DNA from: Stieleria varia
GTDB taxonomy: Bacteria > Planctomycetota > Planctomycetia > Pirellulales > Pirellulaceae
Direction of reading: 5' to 3'
Assembly (NCBI RefSeq): GCF_038443385.1
Contig: NZ_CP151726.1
Location: 4,464,001 to 4,528,000 of the forward strand
DNA: 64,000 nt
Of the stretch, positions 4,639 through 59,994 are shown in pieces. The position numbers and the translations under genes were made by a program. The notes under the pieces are model-generated. The model saw only the letters and a list, made by a program, of their open reading frames with translations. It was not told the origin of the DNA and searched no databases. The number at the start of each line of letters is the position of its first letter. The stretch's first letter is position 1.

Positions 4639-7600
4639 GCAAGCCGCCGGAAGAACAGAATTCTCAGCACGACTTGAATGTTCAAGAGGCAGGAGAATCT
4701 CAATCGGAGCAGACAGCACAGCAGCAGGCCGAAACTCCGCCGACGTTCGGGCCCATTGCCTGGATGGCTCGCAACACCATCGCGGCCAACTTGTTGATGT
4801 TCATTCTGCTCGGTGGAGGCCTGTGGTCTGCTGCAGCGATTCAAAAGGAGGTCTTTCCCGAATCACAGCTTGATATCGTCGAAGTGAGTGTGGGTTACCC
4901 GGGTGCTTCGCCAGAGGAAGTCGAGCAGGGCATATTGCGGCCAATCGAAGGCGCCGTGCGCAGTGTTGACGGTATCCAGCGCCTCGATAGTGCAGCCCGC
5001 GAGTCGAGTGGTACCGTGACGATCGAACTGGTGGCCGGTCAGAATCGCATGAAGGCGTTCCAGGATATTGACCAGGCCGTCAGCCGCATTCGCACGTTTC
5101 CAGAGCAGATTGAACAGCCCGAAGTGCGTTTGCAGTCCGAGCAACGCGAAGTCATGCGTGTGGTGATCTACGGTGACATCGACGTGTGGGCATTACGCAA
5201 GCTGGCTGAACAGTTGCGAGATACGTTGCTGTCGACTGAAGAGATCACGCAGGTCGAATTGCGACGGGTGCCACAGTATGTCACGCACATCGAGATCCCG
5301 CGTCAACAACTACGCGAATACGGGCTGACGCTACCGGATGTGGCCGACATCATTCGGACCGCCAGTCAAGACGTTGCGGCGGGTTCAGTGCAAACCAGTG
5401 CCGGTGAAATTCTGTTGCGGGTCAAGGCTCGCAAACAGTGGGCGGATGAGTTTGCCAAGATTGAAATTGTGTCTGGACGTGAAGGGCCGAGTGTGACGTT
5501 GGGTGACTTGGCCACGATTTGCGACGGATTCGAGGAAGTCGGATTTCATTCCCAGTTCAGCCAAACTCCCTCGGTCGAGCTGGACATCTTTCGGGTCGGT
5601 TCCCAGTCGCCGATCGACATAGCAGCGGTCGTCGAAAAGACCATGAGTGAATTTGAGAGCGTGATGCCGCCCGGAGTGGATTGGCGGATTGACCGCAACA
5701 ATGCGGAAGAGTTTCGGCGGCGCCTGAATTTGGTTTTGGAAAACGCCGGCATGGCCGTCGTGATCGTGTTGGTCATCCTGGCGATATTCTTGGAATTCCG
5801 GTTGGCGTTCTGGGTGATGATGGGAATGGTCGTCTCATTTGTCGCGGGCATTCTGTTCTTGCCTCTGTTCGGCGTCAGCATCAACATGATCTCGCTATTC
5901 GGCTTTCTCGTCGTCTTGGGGATCGTGGTCGATGATGCGGTCGTGGTGGGAGAAAATGTCTATGAGAAACGCCAAACCGATGCCAATCATGAGGATGCCT
6001 CGATTGCGGGTACGCGAGAAGTCGCATCACCGGTCGTCTTTAGCGTGCTGACCAACATTGTCGCGTTTGTGCCTCTGTTGTTCATTCCCGGGGAGACCGG
6101 AAAGTTTTGGGGGCCGCTGCCGGTGGTCGTGATCATTGTGCTGACCCTGTCTCTGTTCGAATCCCTGTTCATTCTGCCTGCCCACTTGGCTCATGCACGC
6201 GAGGTGGTGCACCGTCGCGGACTGTGGGCGTTGCCGCACCGAGCACAACAAGGTTTTGGTCGCGGTTTCAGTCGCTTGGTCGACATTCTGTATCGACCGA
6301 TTTTGTTGTTCTGCCTGAAGTATCGCTACGTCGTTGCAAGTGTCGCGCTGGCCCTGTTTTTGCTGGTCGGAGGCTACGCGACAAGTGCGCATATGGGCAT
6401 GATTCTGATGCCGGAGGTCTCCGCAGATGAGATCGAGGCAGGCGTGAGAATGCCGGTCGGGACAACACAGGATCAGTCCGCGGAGATTGCCCGAGTGGTG
6501 ACCGAAGCCAGTTTGCGAATGTTCGACGAACACAATTTGTATGAAGTCGCCGAGGGGATCAAAACCAATGTTCGTGGTCAGGACTTCATCGATGTTGAAA
6601 TCGTGATGAAGCCACCGGATCAACGTGATATGACGGCAAATGAAGTCATCGAATTGTGGCGAGAATCGATCGGCGACTTACCGGGCGTGGATCAAGTCAC
6701 GTTTGAAGCCGAACGCGGTCCGGGCGGTGGTGGGCGACGCGACATTAGCGTCGCACTGAGTCACTCCAACATTGAGGTGCTGGATAAAGCGGCCCGTGAT
6801 TTTGTCGCACGTGTGGAACAATACGCGAACGTCCGCGATGTTAGTGACAACTACAACAAAGGCAAATCGCAGTACGATTTTCGGTTGCTGCCGGAGGGAC
6901 GCGCCTTGGGCTTGACTGACGAAGGCCTGGGGCAGCAACTGCGCGGAGCATTCTTCGGCTCGCTCGCTCTCCGGTTGCTGCGCGGCACCAATGAAGTGGA
7001 AGTGCGAGTGAAATTGCCCAAAGATCAACGCGAAGATATCCATCACTTAGAGGACTTGGTCATTCGCACGCCCAGCGGAGCTGAAGTGCCGTTGATGGAT
7101 GTTGCAGAGTTAAAGAAAAACGTGGCTTTTTCACGCATCAATCGGCGTGATGGTCGTCGCGCAATCAGTGTGTCGATGGACGTCGAACCCAAACGAGCCA
7201 TTACACAAGTCATCTCTGCGATGGAAAAGGATGCCTTACCTGCGCTACGTCGCGATTACCCAGGGATCACTTGGACGTTTGACGGGAGTAATGCGGAGAT
7301 GCGTCGGGCAACGTCCGCCCTGTGGGGATATTTTGGGCTGGCCCTGGCGGTGATTTACTCTCTGCTGGCCATCGCCTTTCGTGGCTACGTGCAACCATTG
7401 ATTGTTTTGGTCGCGATACCCTTTGGCATTGTTGGTGCGGTACTGGGACACATTTGGCTCGGCTACGACATTTCGCTGGTAAGTCTGATGGGCGTGATTG
7501 CGTTGTCTGGCGTGGTGATCAACGACTCACTCATCATGATCGACTACGCCAACCGCCGCCGGCAAAACGATGTCGACTGCAACGCGTTCGACGCGATCTC

Positions 7601-7832
7601 GCAAGCGGGTGTTCGACGTTTCCGGCCGATTCTGCTCACCACGTTGACCACTTTTGGCGGGCTGGTGCCTTTGATTTTCGAAAGATCTCTGCAAGCACAG
7701 TACATCATTCCGATGGCCATTTCCCTCGGCTTTGGCATCGTGTTCTCGACGGCTATCATTTTGGTGCTGATTCCGTGTCTCTATCTGATACTGGAAGACC
7801 TCATAGCAGTCTTTACGCCCAAGTCTGATTGA
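4635..7832 (+). CDS. RND efflux pump inner-membrane transporter (AcrB/HAE1-like)
   Basis: This is a 1065-residue proton-driven exporter, the usual length for the family. It starts at a GTG that overlaps the adaptor stop (GTGA). After about 35 disordered residues comes TM1 ([20 protein letters not shown]), then the porter loop opening [24 protein letters not shown]. The TM4 segment [20 protein letters not shown] carries the Asp pair that relays protons in AcrB. The second half repeats the fold, with a second set of TM segments around residues 900-1060 ([21 protein letters not shown]). Together with the two upstream genes it forms a complete tripartite operon. Drug, metal or lipid specificity cannot be read from the sequence. 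Confidence 0.95.
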
Positions 7833-7894
7833 TGGCAGGGGGCAGTCAGCGGGCGAGACGGTGGGTGTACCCTATTCGTCATGCGGAGCATGAC

Positions 7895-9088
7895 CTACGT
7901 ATTTCGGATGGCGTTTGCCGATTCGGTGAGGTCGATGCCGACGGGGCACCAGGTGATGCAGCGGCCGCAGCCGGTGCAGCCGGAGGTGCCGAATTGGTCG
8001 TGCCATGTCGCCAGCTTATGCGTCAACCACTGGCGATAGCGACTGCGGATGTCCGGTCTCGCCGTCTCACTCGACATTCGGCTCATCGCGATGTCGAAAC
8101 ACGAGTCCCACTTGCGAACCCGCTGCACGTTCGTCTCGTGCAAATCGCTGACTTCCTCCACACTGGAACAGAAACACGTCGGACACACCATCGTGCAGTT
8201 GGTACACGATAGGCATTTCTCCGCAACGCTTTGCCATGCCGGATGATCCAACGCACCCATCAAAGTTTCTCGGATGCCATCGGCGTCGAAGTGCTTGGTG
8301 ATCGATGCTGCCGTCGTTTCGGTTTGCAAGTTGGCTTGACGCAAGATGTCGTCGCTGGCAAGAGTCGTGGGCAACTCGGCGAGGATTGCTGCTCCCTGCT
8401 CCGAACCTGCTTCGATCACGTATCCGGTCTCCAGCTCCGTCATGACGAGGTCAAAGCCGCCGGTGCATTGCGGTCCGGTTCCCATCGAACTGCAGAAGCA
8501 TGTCGATGAACTTTTGGAGCAGTTCACAGCGATGATCAAAGCGAGCTGGCGGATCTGATGATACATCGGGTCCACGTATTGTCCTTGATCGAATACTCGA
8601 TCTTGGATCGCGATCGCCGCGAGGTCGCAGGCGCGGACACCCAAGAAAGCGTATTGCGGCGGCTCAAACTCGGCTTGCTGAAAATGCCAACCGTCATCGT
8701 CCAAGCTTGCGCCGCCGATCGATGCCGTGGGGGGAAAGAGATAGCGTTTCCAGGAATCAGGTCCGACGTTGAAATGAAATCGACGCGGTGGGGGTGATGC
8801 GTCCTGGGAATCCGCGGTCGATTGTTCAGCGGTGTAGGTGATTTGGTACACGGCCGGCGATTGGTTGTCCGTCCATCCGGCCGGCAACTCCTCCACCTGA
8901 TCGATGCGACGCAAAACGATTGCGTTCTGTTGGATCGTCGGGCCGATGACGTCATAGCCTTTTCTGCGCAGCAGGTCGATCAGAGATTGCAACGCACCGG
9001 TGTGGAGAAAACGTGCTTGCTGGGACGATGTGTGCGTCGGCACTACCATTTCAGAGAACTCGCTTGCGTTGTCTGCAATCTGCAGCAT
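7895..9088 (-). CDS. 4Fe-4S protein resembling sulfhydrogenase/Ni-Fe hydrogenase beta subunit or sulfite reductase subunit A
   Basis: This 397-residue cytoplasmic electron-transfer protein carries two ferredoxin-like clusters near its C-terminus: [16 protein letters not shown] and [16 protein letters not shown], about 80 residues apart. The N-terminal two thirds match the family that includes the HydB/AsrA subunits, with [19 protein letters not shown] and a further Cys set [20 protein letters not shown]. In hydrogenase or sulfite-reductase operons it passes electrons between an NAD(P)H-binding flavoprotein and the catalytic subunit. Here no partner is adjacent: the RND pump ends convergently on one side and a repeat array lies on the other. 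It may serve another reductase elsewhere in the genome. The family is well supported; the electron partner is unknown. Confidence 0.82.
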
Positions 9089-53213: not shown

Positions 53214-53987
53214 GTGGCGACTTGGTACGACCATCCCGAATATTTTGACATGCTGTTCCGTGACGAAACGGAAGGCGAGGTCAAGTTCTTTGAAAAAGCG
53301 TTTGAACGTATCGCGAAACGCAAAGTGAAGCGAGTTCTGGAGCCCGGTTGTGGCAGCGGACGATTGGTCGTTGCCATGGCGGCCGAAGGATACGAGATGA
53401 CGGGCCTCGATTTGAGCGAGTCGATGTTGAATTATGTCAACAAACAGCTCAAGCGAAAGAAGCTGACGGCGGAGACTGTGATCGGCGACATGACGCAGAT
53501 GGATTTGCCACACAAATACGACGCGGCCTTTTGTACTTTCAATACGTTTCGGCATTTGTTGAGCGAAAAGGACGCCGAGGCGCACTTGCGATCCGTCGCG
53601 AACCATCTCAACAAAGGTGGCATCTACATCCTGGGTTTGCACTTGTTGCCGTTGGATGCGTTTGAACACGCGATCGAACGTTTCACAACCAACTACGGCG
53701 GGACGCGTGTCACCACCACGATCAAAGTGATCGAGTTTGATCGCCGAAAACGCATCGAAGTCTTGCGGGTGTTGGTCAAAGCGACGAAGCGCAGCGGGGT
53801 GATCGAGCGGGTCAAGAGCGAATTTCCGTTGCGTGTTTATACCTGTCGGCAACTCAAGAGCTTGTTCAAGAAAGTGGACGACGTGCTGGAACTCGCCGCG
53901 GTGCACGACTACGAGTACGACATCGACGAAACCGCGACCTTCGATGACGACTTGACCGAAGGCGTGTTTGTGCTGCGAAAGCGATAG
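53214..53987 (+). CDS. Class I SAM-dependent methyltransferase
   Basis: The 257-residue protein starts at a GTG with AAAGGA upstream (MATWYDHPEYFDMLFRDETEGE). The SAM-binding motif I is VLEPGCGSGRLVVAMA (about 43-58), followed by motif II YEMTGLDLSESMLNYVNKQL and TVIGDMTQMDL. Motif IV is KYDAAFCTFNTFRHLLSE. The family resembles methyltransferases of type 11/25; the substrate is unknown. The C-terminal half (about 165-257) is beta-rich, as in the YjhP-like or SgcR-like group. It is 71 bp after zwf. A 158-bp tandem array begins on the base after its stop. Confidence 0.88.
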   Translation: MATWYDHPEYFDMLFRDETEGEVKFFEKAFERIAKRKVKRVLEPGCGSGRLVVAMAAEGYEMTGLDLSESMLNYVNKQLKRKKLTAETVIGDMTQMDLPHKYDAAFCTFNTFRHLLSEKDAEAHLRSVANHLNKGGIYILGLHLLPLDAFEHAIERFTTNYGGTRVTTTIKVIEFDRRKRIEVLRVLVKATKRSGVIERVKSEFPLRVYTCRQLKSLFKKVDDVLELAAVHDYEYDIDETATFDDDLTEGVFVLRKR

Positions 53988-55176
53988 TCGCTCGACGTTC
54001 CACGTCGATGGCGTGCGGAACCGTACGACCGGCTATCGCCTTGCGATCCCACGCAGCAAGCCACGCGGAGTGTGTTGGCGGGCGTTTTGTTTAGAAGTCC
54101 GTCAGCTTCGTTCACGTTTTCGACTCGGAGAGTCGAACGACAATGTCGCTCGACGTTCCACGTCGATAGCGTGCGGAACCATACGTCCGGCTATCGCCTT
54201 GCGATCCCACGCAGCAAGCCACGCGGAATGTGTTGGCGGGCGTTTTTTTTAGAAGCCCGCCAGCTTCGTTCACGTTTTCGACTCGGAGAGTCGAACGACA
54301 ATGTCGCTCGACGTTCCACGTCGATAGCGTGCGGAACCATACGTCCGGCTATCGCCTTGCGATCCCACGCAGCAAGCCACGCGGAATGTGTTGGCGGGCG
54401 TTTTGTTTAGAAGCCCGCCAGCTTCGTTCACGTTTTCGACTCGGAGAGTCGAACGACAATGTCGCTCGACGTTCCACGTCGATAGCGTGCGGAACCATAC
54501 GTCCGGCTATCGCCTTGCGATCCCACGCAGCAAGCCACGCGGAATGTGTTGGCGGGCGTTTTGTTTAGAAGCCCGCCAGCTTCGTTCACGTTTTCGACTC
54601 GGAGAGTCGAACGACAATGTCGCTCGACGTTCCACGTCGATAGCGTGCGGAACCATACGTCCGGCTATCGCCTTGCGATCCCACGCAGCAAGCCACGCGG
54701 AATGTGTTGGCGGGCGTTTTTTATAGAAGCCCGCCAGCTTCGTTCACGTTTTCGACTCGGAGAGTCGAACGACAATGTCGCTCGACGTTCCACGTCGATA
54801 GCGTGCGGAACCGTACGACCGGCTATCGCCTTGCGATCCCACGCAGCAAGCCACGCGGAATGTGTTGGCGGGCGTTTTGTTTAGAAGCCCGCCAGCTTCG
54901 TTCACGTTTTCGACTCGGAGAGTCGAACGACAATGTCGCTCGACGTTCCACGTCGATAGTGTGCGGAACCATACGTCCGGCTATCGCCTTGCGATCCCAC
55001 GCAGCAAGCCACGCGGAATGTGTTGGCGGGCGTTTTGTTTAGAAGCCCGCCAGCTTCGTTCACGTTTTCGACTCGGAGAGTCGAACGACAATGTCGCTCG
55101 ACGTTCCACGTCGATGGCGTGCGGAACCATACGTCCGGCTATCGCCTTGCGATCCCACGCAGCAAGCCACGCGGAA
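53988..55176. repeat. Tandem repeat, exact period 158 bp, seven copies plus a partial
   Basis: Units begin TCGCTCGACGTTCCACGTCG at 53988, 54146, 54304, 54462, 54620, 54778, 54936 and 55094 (partial). Each has three hairpins: CGACGTTCCACGTCG, GGCGGGCGTTTTGTTTAGAA-GCCCGCC, and CGACTCGGAGAGTCG. Units differ by a few bases (units 1 and 6 share CCGTACGACCGG; the others have CCATACGTCCGG). The 112-residue frames repeating through it are artefacts. It fills the convergent gap between the methyltransferase and hemC. Confidence 0.93.
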
Positions 55177-55230: not shown

Positions 55231-56166
55231 TTATCGGATCAGTTTCGCGGCTCCTTGTTCGATCAGCACGTCCGCCAGTTCATTGCCAGCGGCAATCGCG
55301 ACCGTTTCCCAAGTGTCCGAGTCGAGGTCGATTGATGTTTCGTTTTCTGCTTCACAAATCTGTTTGCCATCAGTCGACAGAACGCGCGCCGTCAATCGAA
55401 GGGTTCCGTTTTCGCAGACGCCGTGCGCGGCGATCGGGGCCAAGCATCCGCCGTGCAACTGCGACAACAACTTGCGTTCAGCCAAGACAGCTGCTGCGGA
55501 ACTTGGGTCGTTCGTGCGGCGAACGATTTCCAATGCCCGCGAGTCACTGCGGCGGACCTCGATCCCCAAAGCACCTTGTCCGGGGGCCGGAAGCATCGTT
55601 TCCAGGGGCATTTCCGTTCGGCTGACGTGGTCATATTGCAAACGCAGTAGACCTGCGTTGGCCAAAACGATCGCTTCGAAGTCGCCATCCGCCAGTTTTT
55701 GCAATCGCGTTTGGACGTTTCCGCGGATGGGCAAGACGTTCAAGTCGGGACGTTGGCGGCGGAGTTGTGCGGCCCGACGGGTGCTGCCTGTACCCACCCT
55801 GGCCTCCTGTGGCAATTCCGCCACCGTCCAGCGGCTTTCGCTGATCAGGCAATCAGCCACCGTTTCACGTGGGGGAACCGATGCGAGCACAAGTCGTTCA
55901 TCGACTTCCGTCGGCAGGTCTTTCAGCGAATGCACCGCCACATCGGCTTCGTCGTCCAACAACGCCTGTTGAATCCGCTTGGTAAAGACGCCAATTTGCC
56001 GTGTTCCGTCGATCGGCCGCATGTCCACATCACCTTTGCTGACCAAGGGAACCAGGACCGTTGGAACGCCGTGATCGGCCAACAGGGCGGCGAAATGTTC
56101 GGCTTGCCACATCGCCAGCGGGCTTTCTCGGGTCGCGATTCGCAGGGGGGGAGGCTCGGATGACAT
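55231..56166 (-). CDS. hemC: Hydroxymethylbilane synthase (porphobilinogen deaminase)
   Basis: HemC polymerises four porphobilinogens into hydroxymethylbilane for heme and other tetrapyrroles. It has 311 residues from the ATG at 56166 ([24 protein letters not shown]). Landmarks are [36 protein letters not shown] (with the catalytic Asp), [24 protein letters not shown], and [13 protein letters not shown] with the dipyrromethane-binding Cys241. All are intact. It is divergent from the kinase gene with 257 bp between the starts. No other hem gene is adjacent. Confidence 0.96.
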
Positions 56167-56423
56167 GACAATGCAACTCAGCGGTGGGAATCTGGGGGAT
56201 TTCGGTCTGGCTAGGTACCTTTTGAGCACTTCTCACGCCCTAGGTCCGTTCTAAATTAGAGCGTGGAACGACTTAGATGAAAGGGATGCGATCCCAGGCA
56301 GTGTAAACGTCCAATGGAATCGCGATACGTGCCGCAAAGTCGCCAGCCCTCCTTTTGGGGAGTTCACGCCGATTCTAGCAGCGTCACACACGCGTAATCA
56401 CTCTCACCCGCCCGTAGCCATTC

Positions 56424-59036
56424 GTGTCATCATCATCCGATTCGGACTTCCCGATCAACGACCAACCGACCCGCGATTTTGGCAGCGTGTCGTCGGATGA
56501 TGATTTGATCAGCGGGGAGATCGGTGACACCTCTTCCTTGCCCAGCAGCGAGCCGATTCCGTCGCGGATCGGAGACTATGAGATCCGGCACTTGATCGGT
56601 TCCGGAGGCATGGGCGAAGTTTACTTGGCCGAGCATGTCCGCATGCAGCGCAAGGTGGCTGTGAAGGTCTTGCGTAAGGACAAGATGCAGGAGCCTGCGG
56701 CGATTGAGCGGTTCTATGATGAAGTCCGCGTGGCGTCACGGTTGATGCACCCGAACATTGTCGCTGCGTTCGATGCCGGAGAGTTCGACGGCATTCATTA
56801 TCTGACGATGGAGTACGTGGATGGATTGAACCTGACGCGGCTGGTCAGCAAGAAGGGGCCGTTTCCTGTCGGGATGGCGGCCGCCGTGATTCGTCAAGCC
56901 GCGATGGGCTTATTGCACGCTCACCGAGCCGGGATCGTTCACCGAGACGTCAAACCGGGCAACTTGATGCAGGCCAGTGACGGCACGATCAAAGTGCTCG
57001 ACCTGGGACTTGCCCAAATCAACCAAATTCAATGGTCCGAGGACGGCCGTGAGTTGGGCTCCATCCCAGATCCTGATTCTCACCATAAACGCAAAGGCAA
57101 GCTCGTCGGCACACTCGCTTACATGGCTCCCGAGCAGTTGGAATCGCCCGACGATGCGGACCCACGTAGTGACATCTATTCGCTCGGCGCGGTGCTGTTT
57201 TTCTTGCTGACCGCTAGGCCTCCGTTCACCGGCGACTACTTGGAGCAAGTCTACGGGCATCGCCATGGCGCGATTCCGGACTTGATGCAAGAACGCGACG
57301 ACATCAGCTTGGGCTTTGCCAACATCTTTCGGCGGATGATGGCCAAGAAGGCGTCGCAGCGTTATGCATCGATGGATGAAGTCATAGAGGATTTGAGCGA
57401 ATACGCTGACGACACCTGCGCTCCGTCATGGATTACCGAGTTCCGATACCGACAAAACAAAGTCGATGTGTCGACGGCGTCCGGCGGCTCCACGGCAATC
57501 GCGAACATGCCGATCCTGGCGATCGACTTGGACATGTTCTACGCGACGGCGGCGGAAGCGGTCCCGGGCAGCGGCGTACGGTTGCTGAGCGCGGGAAACG
57601 ATGCCCAGCCGCTGTTTCGCATGGCGTTTGCAAGCGACAACGGACGACTGATTTGCGATTCGGACGCCATCGACATGCGTACCGATGACCCCAAACAAGT
57701 CGTCCACTGTTTGCCCATGTATATCGGCAAGGACGTGGTGGACCGCGAAGTCTGTGGGAGAAAGTGCCCGCCGGAGGTCTTGTTGGGACTGGCGATCCAA
57801 CGGGTGATTGCGAACGCATGGCCGGAACGCGCCATCCCGCGAATCGCCGCGATCGTTGTTCCCGCATGTTACGATCAGTTTCACCGACGCAGCATCGTAC
57901 AAGCCGCCCGGATCGCCGGATTGGAATCGATCCGATTGGTCGATCGATCCGTTGCATCGGTTCAGTCCACGATGCTGGATCCGGAGTTGGAATCGCTTAG
58001 CGATTCGTCAGTTGATGTTAAAGAAAAGGAACTGATCCTGTATTTGGGTTTGACAGGTCAAGCGACTGAGATCGCCTTGATTCGACGCGATGGAGTGCAA
58101 CTGACCCAGCTGGCGACAGCCGGTCACTGGCACACAGGCGGAACAGCGTGGCTGCATCGTTTGGTGGACTTGGCCGCAAAAGCCTTCGTCAAAGAACACA
58201 AGTTCGATCCGAAGAAAACGCTGAAGTATGCTTCGCGTCTGCAAATGGCGTGCGAGCGAGCGATCAATTCGATGTTGTTGTTGCCGGAAGTCATCATCGG
58301 GATTGATACGGATGAGAAATGTTTGACGGTGACGGTTTCTCGCGACGAGTGGCTTGAGCGAAGTGGTGATTTGATTTACCGCATGCGTCGCTGTATGCAC
58401 GAGGTTTGCACACAGGCGGGCGTCAGTCCCAAAAGTATCCAGACGTGCATCACCATGGGGCCGCTGTTGCACATGCGTGAGCTGCATGAACGCCTGCTGC
58501 ACAAGTTGTCGCCGACGATCCAACGAAAAGCATTGGATCGACCCGATGCCGCACGCGGCGCGGCTGCTTGTTTGGCAGCAGAGTTACCTGGGCGTTCCGA
58601 TTTGGCGCTGCCGCCTCAAACGGTGGCCAGTCAGTCGATCGGAATCGTCATCGCGGATAACCAAGGCCGACGTCGGATCTTGCCGATCATTCAGAAAGGC
58701 ACGCCGCTGCCTGCTCGCACGAACCGCAAGCTCTCGATCGCCAAAGATCGTCAGTCGATGACGTTGTCGATCGTTGAGACCTCTGGAGTGCACGGCAAGA
58801 GTTGGCATTCTCTGGGACGCTACGAGTTCGAAGTCGACAAGGATTCCGACAATCGTTTGAAGCGAACGCGAATGATCGGTTTCGAACTGAACGTGAACGG
58901 TTTGTTGACCGTCCGTGCCCAAACACCGGGAACTCCAGAGAGCACCAAGTTGTCGGATATCCCCATTTCGATGCTCAACGAGCGGGATGAACCCCAATGG
59001 CAACGCTGGATCAGCGACCTAGTGGACACCCGCTGA
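56424..59036 (+). CDS. Ser/Thr protein kinase fused to an Hsp70 (DnaK)-like domain
   Basis: The protein has 870 residues from a GTG. Residues about 50-330 are a Hanks-type kinase: G-loop GSGGMGEV (59-66), Lys81, Glu100, HRDVKPGN (Asp175, Asn180), DLG (193-195) and the APE-like MAPEQLESPDD. There is no transmembrane segment. From about 362 to 860 the sequence follows Hsp70 in order: AIDLD, IVVPACYDQFHRRSIVQAARIAGLE, LYLGLTGQATEIALI, GHWHTGGTAWLHRLVDL, TVSRDEWLERSGDLIYR, CITMGPLLHM, then a substrate-domain-like SIGIVIADN...LPARTNRKLSIA and LNVNGLLTVRAQ. The ATP-phosphate loops are degenerate (no GGGT, no GGSTR). It is likely a cytoplasmic kinase sensing unfolded protein or a client; that role is inference. 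Confidence 0.9.
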   Translation: MSSSSDSDFPINDQPTRDFGSVSSDDDLISGEIGDTSSLPSSEPIPSRIGDYEIRHLIGSGGMGEVYLAEHVRMQRKVAVKVLRKDKMQEPAAIERFYDEVRVASRLMHPNIVAAFDAGEFDGIHYLTMEYVDGLNLTRLVSKKGPFPVGMAAAVIRQAAMGLLHAHRAGIVHRDVKPGNLMQASDGTIKVLDLGLAQINQIQWSEDGRELGSIPDPDSHHKRKGKLVGTLAYMAPEQLESPDDADPRSDIYSLGAVLFFLLTARPPFTGDYLEQVYGHRHGAIPDLMQERDDISLGFANIFRRMMAKKASQRYASMDEVIEDLSEYADDTCAPSWITEFRYRQNKVDVSTASGGSTAIANMPILAIDLDMFYATAAEAVPGSGVRLLSAGNDAQPLFRMAFASDNGRLICDSDAIDMRTDDPKQVVHCLPMYIGKDVVDREVCGRKCPPEVLLGLAIQRVIANAWPERAIPRIAAIVVPACYDQFHRRSIVQAARIAGLESIRLVDRSVASVQSTMLDPELESLSDSSVDVKEKELILYLGLTGQATEIALIRRDGVQLTQLATAGHWHTGGTAWLHRLVDLAAKAFVKEHKFDPKKTLKYASRLQMACERAINSMLLLPEVIIGIDTDEKCLTVTVSRDEWLERSGDLIYRMRRCMHEVCTQAGVSPKSIQTCITMGPLLHMRELHERLLHKLSPTIQRKALDRPDAARGAAACLAAELPGRSDLALPPQTVASQSIGIVIADNQGRRRILPIIQKGTPLPARTNRKLSIAKDRQSMTLSIVETSGVHGKSWHSLGRYEFEVDKDSDNRLKRTRMIGFELNVNGLLTVRAQTPGTPESTKLSDIPISMLNERDEPQWQRWISDLVDTR

Positions 59037-59614: not shown

Positions 59615-59834
59615 TGTTTGACCCGTAGCCGACAGGCGCAGGCGGAAGTGGCGTTTGGTTCTGCGGTGCAAGCCGGTTGATCGTGTCTCCTGCGCCTTCG
59701 GCTACGGGTCAAACGTTCGGAAGGTCTCTCGCGCTTGGTCAATGCGAAAACAGTCTGCATCTATCAGCCGCCACGCGATAGCGTCCGGTTCTTACTGCAT
59801 CTATCAGCCGCCACGCGATAGCGCCCGGTTCTTA
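59615..59834. repeat. GTTTGACCCGTAGCC inverted pair and CAGCCGCCACGCGATAGCG tandem
   Basis: GTTTGACCCGTAGCCGACAG (about 59617) and its near-complement CTTCGGCTACGGGTCAAAC (about 59697) face each other about 100 bp apart. From 59757 two 43-bp tandem copies of ATCAGCCGCCACGCGATAGC follow. They are relatives of the 39-kb array and the 170-bp repeat. The rest of 59037-59994 has no gene. Confidence 0.6.
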
Positions 59835-59994
59835 CACCTAAATACGAGAACCGCTCTCTATCTCGCTGCAACTGACGAATAATCCGGGCTAGCCATGCAG
59901 GCTTGAATGTGTTGATAGCCGTTCTGCTTGGAAGGCTTTTTTGGCTTCGATCTCGTTTTCGATTCGAAGAGTCAAATGACGCGGATTCAGCCAC

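Follow-up and report, generated by a model that had tools for sequence, protein, structure and literature searches.

What does a chaperone fold do as part of a signalling enzyme? The question is raised by a gene of Stieleria varia, found in the 64,000-nucleotide stretch of DNA analysed here (the window) from a genome of 9.7 Mb, that joins a Ser/Thr kinase to an Hsp70-like module. The bare kinase-Hsp70 architecture is already known since 2005, when Krupa and Srinivasan, in the available text of PMC1262709, listed a Kinase+HSP70 protein in Pirellula, gi|32474490. This protein from Pirellula sp. (Rhodopirellula baltica SH1) has the same domain order and comes from the same bacterial group as the fusion in the window, and based on the Rhodopirellula loci L080 (R. 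baltica) and L097 (R. europaea) we infer that the two are orthologous. For gi|32474490, the available text of PMC1262709 does not mention ATPase residues, a lid, the distribution or hemC. A search of the open-licence literature, with supplements and subscription papers outside its scope, found no description of a lost ATPase, of clade-wide conservation or of a pairing with hemC. The available parts of PMC7159879 do not describe a kinase with an ATPase-dead Hsp70, and those of PMC11032199 describe no such fusion, the term 'hsp70' being absent from the main text.

Kinase and Hsp70 module in one reading frame

The fusion gene occupies 56424..59036 on the plus strand as one open frame of 870 amino acids, with a GTG start and the stop codon included, and it is a single frame in relatives too. 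A Pfam search of the protein placed Pkinase at residues 52-318 (E-value 5.7e-46; 157.5 bits, cut-off 31.7) and HSP70 (PF00012) at residues 475-844 (1.7e-28; 99.7 bits, cut-off 20.6). When the first 352 residues were deleted, the remainder matched Hsp70 at 4.2e-29 and Hsp70 chains of the PDB from 3.2e-19. Among the genus-mates the fusion lies in a single stop-free frame in 13 of 13 (the match in genome G008 begins at a contig end). At 34 of 35 named loci a common frame covers kinase and Hsp70; of these 34, three (L073, L090 and L095) end at a contig edge within the kinase. The fusion is therefore neither a chance event nor an assembly artefact, and the same 34 loci rule out two genes misread as one. 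Thus, the kinase followed by an Hsp70 module that had been proposed in a preliminary description is real, with one frame and both Pfam domains above their cut-offs. The exception among the named loci is L103 of Rhodopirellula maiorica SM1, where the fusion is broken by a frame change and appears at 5777-8549 as two frames of 613 and 339 codons, due to either a sequencing error or a real loss.

The kinase domain (56577..57377, plus strand, residues 52-318) contains all catalytic residues tested, in line with the complete catalytic core first ascribed to it: the VAIK lysine K81, the alpha-C glutamate E100, the HRD aspartate D175, the DFG aspartate D193, in a motif that reads DLG, and the APE glutamate E237. 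All 30 aligned fusions keep D175, D193 and E237, each of the 28 left uncut at K81 and E100 has these two, and K81, E100, D175 and D193 are also kept in a second, overlapping set of 31 rows. Judged by these residues, the kinase half appears to be an intact-looking Ser/Thr kinase. It matches the PknB/Stk1 PASTA kinases (NF033483) over residues 52-331 (2e-78), with a score for the fusion protein of 264.8 bits, below the cut-off of 450. No PASTA repeats were found in the Pfam search, and no segment of the fusion protein was membrane-like when scanned for transmembrane segments in 19-residue windows (maximum KD 1.28). Kinase and module are joined by a low-confidence, poorly conserved linker (57411..57497, plus strand, residues 330-358), in which pLDDT fell below 50 at residues 335-357 and conservation was 2.18 as compared with 3.22 for the kinase.

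The Hsp70 segment was modelled with AlphaFold2 from 35 sequences (residues 357-870; mean pLDDT 90.1, pTM 0.90), and the model was compared with the PDB by Foldseek. The 50 listed matches are Hsp70/Hsp110 structures, which rules out MreB, ParM and the other ASKHA families. Both a nucleotide-binding domain (NBD) and a beta-type substrate domain (SBD-beta) were found, the NBD fold covering residues 362-736 (57507..58631, plus strand) with its catalytic residues replaced. In the comparison with DnaK that the preliminary description had suggested, the module was placed with DnaK/BiP, in a docked shape. Neither of the two findings that it had held to speak against its reading, another ASKHA family or an intact ATPase geometry, was seen. 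The best matches are docked ATP-state structures of DnaK/BiP, e.g. 4jn4 (TM 0.85 on the query, rmsd 3.4 A), and the whole-length fit is worse to 7o6r (rmsd 13.8 A) and 2v7y (26.6 A), which we take to be undocked Hsp70 entries. AMPylated BiP crystals labelled apo/ADP give a fit comparable to that of the ATP ones (6eob, 4.2 A; 6eof, 4.0 A), and the docked, ATP-state-like shape is best regarded as a property of the prediction and no proof of the resting state. A model of the full-length protein reached a pLDDT of 80.4 and a pTM of 0.61, a value that leaves the arrangement of the kinase relative to the Hsp70 part open. Foldseek also finds Hsp70 first with this model, and 6sr6_C and 5mb9_A, from the complex of the yeast Hsp70 homologue Ssz1, are among its listed matches.

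Replaced ATPase residues and a reduced substrate domain

Residues were mapped on the genome's own DnaK (L050) and are named here by what we take to be the E. coli DnaK numbering (K70, E171, D194, T199, D201 and so on). The changes in the phosphate loops that had been noted earlier hold: DLGGGTFD of DnaK, which contains D194, T199 and D201, aligns with GLTGQATE (residues 542-549; 58047..58070, plus strand), and VGGSTR aligns with MGPLLH, so that GPLLHM (residues 679-684; 58458..58475, plus strand) lies at the place of GGSTRV in the adenosine loop. The strongest losses had been missed. P431 (57714..57716, plus strand) occupies the place of K70, and R508 (57945..57947, plus strand) that of E171, a charge reversal seen as Arg or Lys in every degenerate row of two sets (24 of 24 and 31 of 31); D194 is replaced by G542, T199 by A547 and T11 by M371. 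At the place of GDTHLG the protein reads GHWHTG (residues 567-572; 58122..58139, plus strand).

The same replacements recur among relatives. In 24 degenerate fusions the K70 position is Pro in 19 and Gln in 5, E171 is Arg in 20 and Lys in 4, D194 is Gly in 17, Ser in 4, Met in 2 and Gln in 1, T199 is Ala in 21 and Gly in 3, and D201 is Glu in 23 and Asp in 1. All five residues are intact in four of four other kinase-Hsp70 fusions (L063, L064, L066 and L072) and in 12 of 12 Hsp70-like proteins without a kinase, a contrast with the 24 of 24 that partly restates the naming, as the label 'degenerate' was assigned after the motif alignment had been viewed. Because grouping by motif is circular in this way, less circular support comes from the single clade described below and from a set of 31 named degenerate rows, which overlaps the set of 24. 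There, K70 is Pro in 25, Gln in 4, Thr in 1 and Met in 1; E171 is Arg in 27 and Lys in 4; D194 is Gly in 22, Ser in 6, His in 2 and Thr in 1; T199 is Ala in 21, Gly in 9 and Ser in 1; and D201 is Glu in 26, Asp in 4 and Asn in 1. Two intermediate fusions, L018 and L019, have Lys at T199 and Ser at T11 and keep K70, E171, D194 and D201. E549 and W569, neither of them a DnaK residue, do not vary across the 18 rows of one alignment, and W569 is also constant in a 32-row alignment. The D8 position of the 24 degenerate fusions is Asp in 18 and Glu in 6, and since it is mostly kept, some ligand binding in the cleft could still be possible.

The full Hsp70 order of motifs that the preliminary description had seen stands for the NBD followed by SBD-beta (58638..58958, plus strand, residues 739-845) and stops there. 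The alpha-helical lid is absent: DSSP on the AlphaFold2 models assigned after SBD-beta only a short, single C-terminal helix (58980..59027, plus strand, residues 853-868), where the lid would begin. The peptide pocket was compared in 23 rows at positions I401, T403, M404, F426, Q433, V436, I438, G443, E444 and I472, presumably those that line the pocket in Hsp70. All 23 rows have Ile, Leu or Val at I401, F426 and I438; at V436, 18 rows carry Met or Leu, four Pro and one Gln. Arg takes the place of I472 in 16 rows and Gly that of M404 in 17, and changes are also seen at T403, at Q433 and in the GE turn 443-444, suggesting that the hydrophobic pocket is kept only in part. With the hydrolysis residues replaced clade-wide, the lid absent and the module conserved, the sequence lends good support to the earlier proposal that the module would not act as an ATP-driven, cycling chaperone.

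A known Hsp70 that does not hydrolyse ATP offers the closest working analogy. Ssz1 of the yeast ribosome-associated complex binds ATP, does not hydrolyse it and lacks the SBD-alpha lid, according to the available text of PMC7083937. By that description of Ssz1, the module in the window resembles it in that both a lid and the hydrolysis residues are missing. Ssz1, however, is a separate chain that acts with the J-protein Zuo1 and binds ATP, whereas the module is fused to a kinase, and homology between the two is claimed only at the level of Hsp70. Closer to hand are planctomycete kinase-free Hsp70-like proteins of about 520-540 amino acids, which are of similar length and belong to the module's closest relatives in the tree. 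Kinase-free proteins of this kind keep the catalytic residues in 12 tabulated rows, longer proteins included, and the module does not.

Spread, selection and history

A survey of genomes for the same fusion, as had been suggested, found relatives at E≤1e-82, beyond the best kinase-only match (1.1e-73), in 122 of 241 Pirellulaceae genomes, which belong to 21 of 68 genera; the 122 take in intermediate fusions and at least one that is intact (G205), the ATPase residues were checked in a subset only, and some rows cover part of the query (456-866 in G725, 21-615 in G608). All 14 genomes listed for the genus of the window match at this threshold. The best-matching named relatives are the planctomycetes Stieleria, Roseiconus, Rhodopirellula and Rubripirellula, and the named collection holds 35 fusion loci. 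A phylum search with an intact fusion as the query matched 43 of 392 genomes at E≤1e-90, and among the matches listed only G107 spans both domains.

Several related arrangements were met in these searches. G662 (C119) and G672 (C5) each carry two matching genes, and one gene of each pair lies in a longer frame, of 1185 and 1160 codons, respectively. A 935-residue frame at L131 (1486-4290, minus strand) has an N-terminal part of about 415 residues without a Pfam match (E≤0.01), followed by Hsp70. An adjacent pair of Hsp70-like genes, one of about 520-540 amino acids and the other longer, recurs in many listed planctomycete genomes (L035, L036, L038, L041, L109 and others).

Selection was assessed in six close pairs, where dN/dS was 0.025-0.117 in the pseudo-NBD, 0-0.108 in the beta domain and 0-0.046 in the kinase, values that are rough (Nei-Gojobori with Jukes-Cantor correction) and come from pairs with members in common. 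The pseudo-ATPase domain is under purifying selection. Mean conservation was 3.22 in the kinase, 2.87 in SBD-beta, the highest among the stretches cut from the Hsp70 part, 2.80 in the pseudo-active stretch 541-572 and 2.56 in the whole NBD.

In an Hsp70 tree of 60 hand-chosen rows, the 23 degenerate fusions group as a single clade (SH-aLRT 100), whose stem is long, at 1.57 changes per column, and which is placed within the planctomycete Hsp70-like group and apart from DnaK. They are again one clade in a kinase tree of 49 rows (SH-aLRT 99). A single kinase clade of all 29 fusions was rejected (p-AU 0.006), whereas one of 28 fusions without L072 was not (p-AU 0.118); the rejection is due to L072, which has a very long branch. 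A kinase clade of the degenerate and the two partly altered fusions was not rejected with L072 (p-AU 0.616) or without it (0.814). Long branches meet in the Hsp70 tree; when one intermediate at a time was left out together with L064, L018 joined the degenerate clade at 99.5, and L019 did so at only 34. Once L072 is removed, the data are compatible with a single joining of kinase and Hsp70 and with several. The intact-ATPase fusions L063, L064, L066 and L072 may or may not share an origin with the type in the window.

Possible roles of the module and the neighbouring hemC gene

The reading that we favour, and to which we give about an even chance, is that the protein is a PknB-like Ser/Thr kinase of the cytosol with a regulatory part at its C-terminus, an ATPase-dead and lidless Hsp70 that binds a peptide or partner and switches or directs the kinase. 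The pseudo-Hsp70 would not cycle and would stay near the docked shape. Its conserved beta domain would bind an exposed peptide or a partner protein, and this binding could switch or direct the kinase. In that case the molecule bound by the module would be what the kinase signals or acts on. Such a design probably uses the old chaperone fold as the binding part of a signalling enzyme. Gating of the kinase by the Hsp70 part, as first proposed, is plausible; targeting or scaffolding is equally compatible with what was found.

It is possible, if on balance doubtful, that the pseudo-Hsp70 is a targeting scaffold, on which a fixed partner or client is docked and brought to a constitutively active kinase. 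The anatomy would be the same as for gating, conservation within the module is highest in SBD-beta, and the low-confidence, poorly conserved linker suits tethering better than tight allostery; yet the present data fit gating equally. In another reading, which we hold unlikely, the altered NBD cleft is a non-hydrolysing sensor of a nucleotide or other small molecule, and the beta domain does no more than relay its state. Conservation in the stretch 541-572 (2.80) nearly equals that of SBD-beta (2.87) and exceeds the NBD mean of 2.56, the new residues E549 and W569 are invariant in 18 rows (W569 also in 32), and D8 is largely kept. However, the replacement of K70 by Pro or Gln, the changed GG..R adenosine loop and the charge reversal at E171 make ordinary ATP-Mg binding unlikely.

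A different kind of evidence comes from the neighbourhood. The divergent neighbour of the fusion gene is hemC (55231..56229, minus strand; Pfam PF01379, 2.2e-71), which encodes porphobilinogen deaminase of haem synthesis and gives the only match to hemC in this genome. The region between the two genes (56230..56423) measures 194 bp with the hemC start of the longest frame, and a later start would widen it. In named loci with enough upstream DNA, hemC is divergent and adjacent in 23 of 28, the seven others of the 35 (L073, L084, L087, L090, L094, L095 and L106) having less than 450 bp upstream and not being judged. It is absent beside the fusion at the remaining five (L098, L099, L104, L105 and L107) and at L016/L029, which are one locus. 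Among 20 further regions hemC was adjacent in 13 and absent in 7; their species overlap those of the 28 loci and the counts are not additive. The outer flanks were compared at 18 loci picked for having the hemC pair, 17 of them with enough DNA beyond the fusion gene. Beyond hemC, 33 of 153 locus pairs had coding sequence in common, among them none of the 17 pairs with the window; beyond the fusion gene it was 10 of 136, with none of the 16 pairs that include the window. As the outer flanks turn over while the pair stays, fusion and hemC form an island of kept order in the Rhodopirellula-Stieleria-Rubripirellula group. A search for a shared motif in the intergenic region gave nothing convincing, the best 8-mer, CTATAATA, occurring in 7 of 32 regions against a shuffled maximum of 5.

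Repeats lie on both sides of the gene pair. A 158-bp tandem unit (7.5 copies, 98% match; window 53987-55176) stops 54 bases before the hemC frame. Searched with two such units, this genome showed 99 matches, often arrayed and many about 60 bp long; among the eight genus-mates in that search only G006 matched, with four weak, short matches. Downstream of the fusion gene, a 40-bp unit is present in two head-to-tail copies with 97% match (window 59755-59835).

A link of the fusion to haem synthesis is treated as a lead. Taken further, the divergent pair could be a regulatory unit in which the fusion cooperates with HemC or with tetrapyrrole synthesis and the kinase acts on HemC or on haem demand. 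The kept adjacency and the rarely common outer flanks speak for such a unit, but the flank comparison used loci chosen for having hemC, adjacency may reflect a shared promoter region alone, and no clear common intergenic motif was found. The pairing is moreover absent at the five named loci, at 7 of the 20 regions and at L016/L029, on deeper branches where the fusion is kept, and we regard this explanation as distinctly improbable. A further, rather unlikely reading is a pseudo-chaperone receptor kinase, in which the ATPase-dead Hsp70 would serve a cytosolic kinase as its input domain and read the folding of a client, R/K508 and E549 would hold the docked state in place of nucleotide, and a connection to tetrapyrrole synthesis would run through the fixed divergent neighbour hemC in the Rhodopirellula-Stieleria-Rubripirellula group. 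That the Hsp70 half is a decaying relic and the kinase alone matters, as the long stem of the degenerate clade might suggest, is highly improbable and was rejected on the purifying selection in the NBD, with the conserved new residues and the single frame at 34 of 35 named loci also against it.

With a regulatory, ATPase-dead Hsp70 part as the favoured reading, the fusion is a natural case of an Hsp70 that is apparently without its motor and yet kept, inside a signalling enzyme. A comparison series is at hand, from intact fusions (L063, L064, L066 and L072) through the partly altered L018 and L019 to the fully altered clade, and the fusion could show what the Hsp70 fold senses without ATP hydrolysis.
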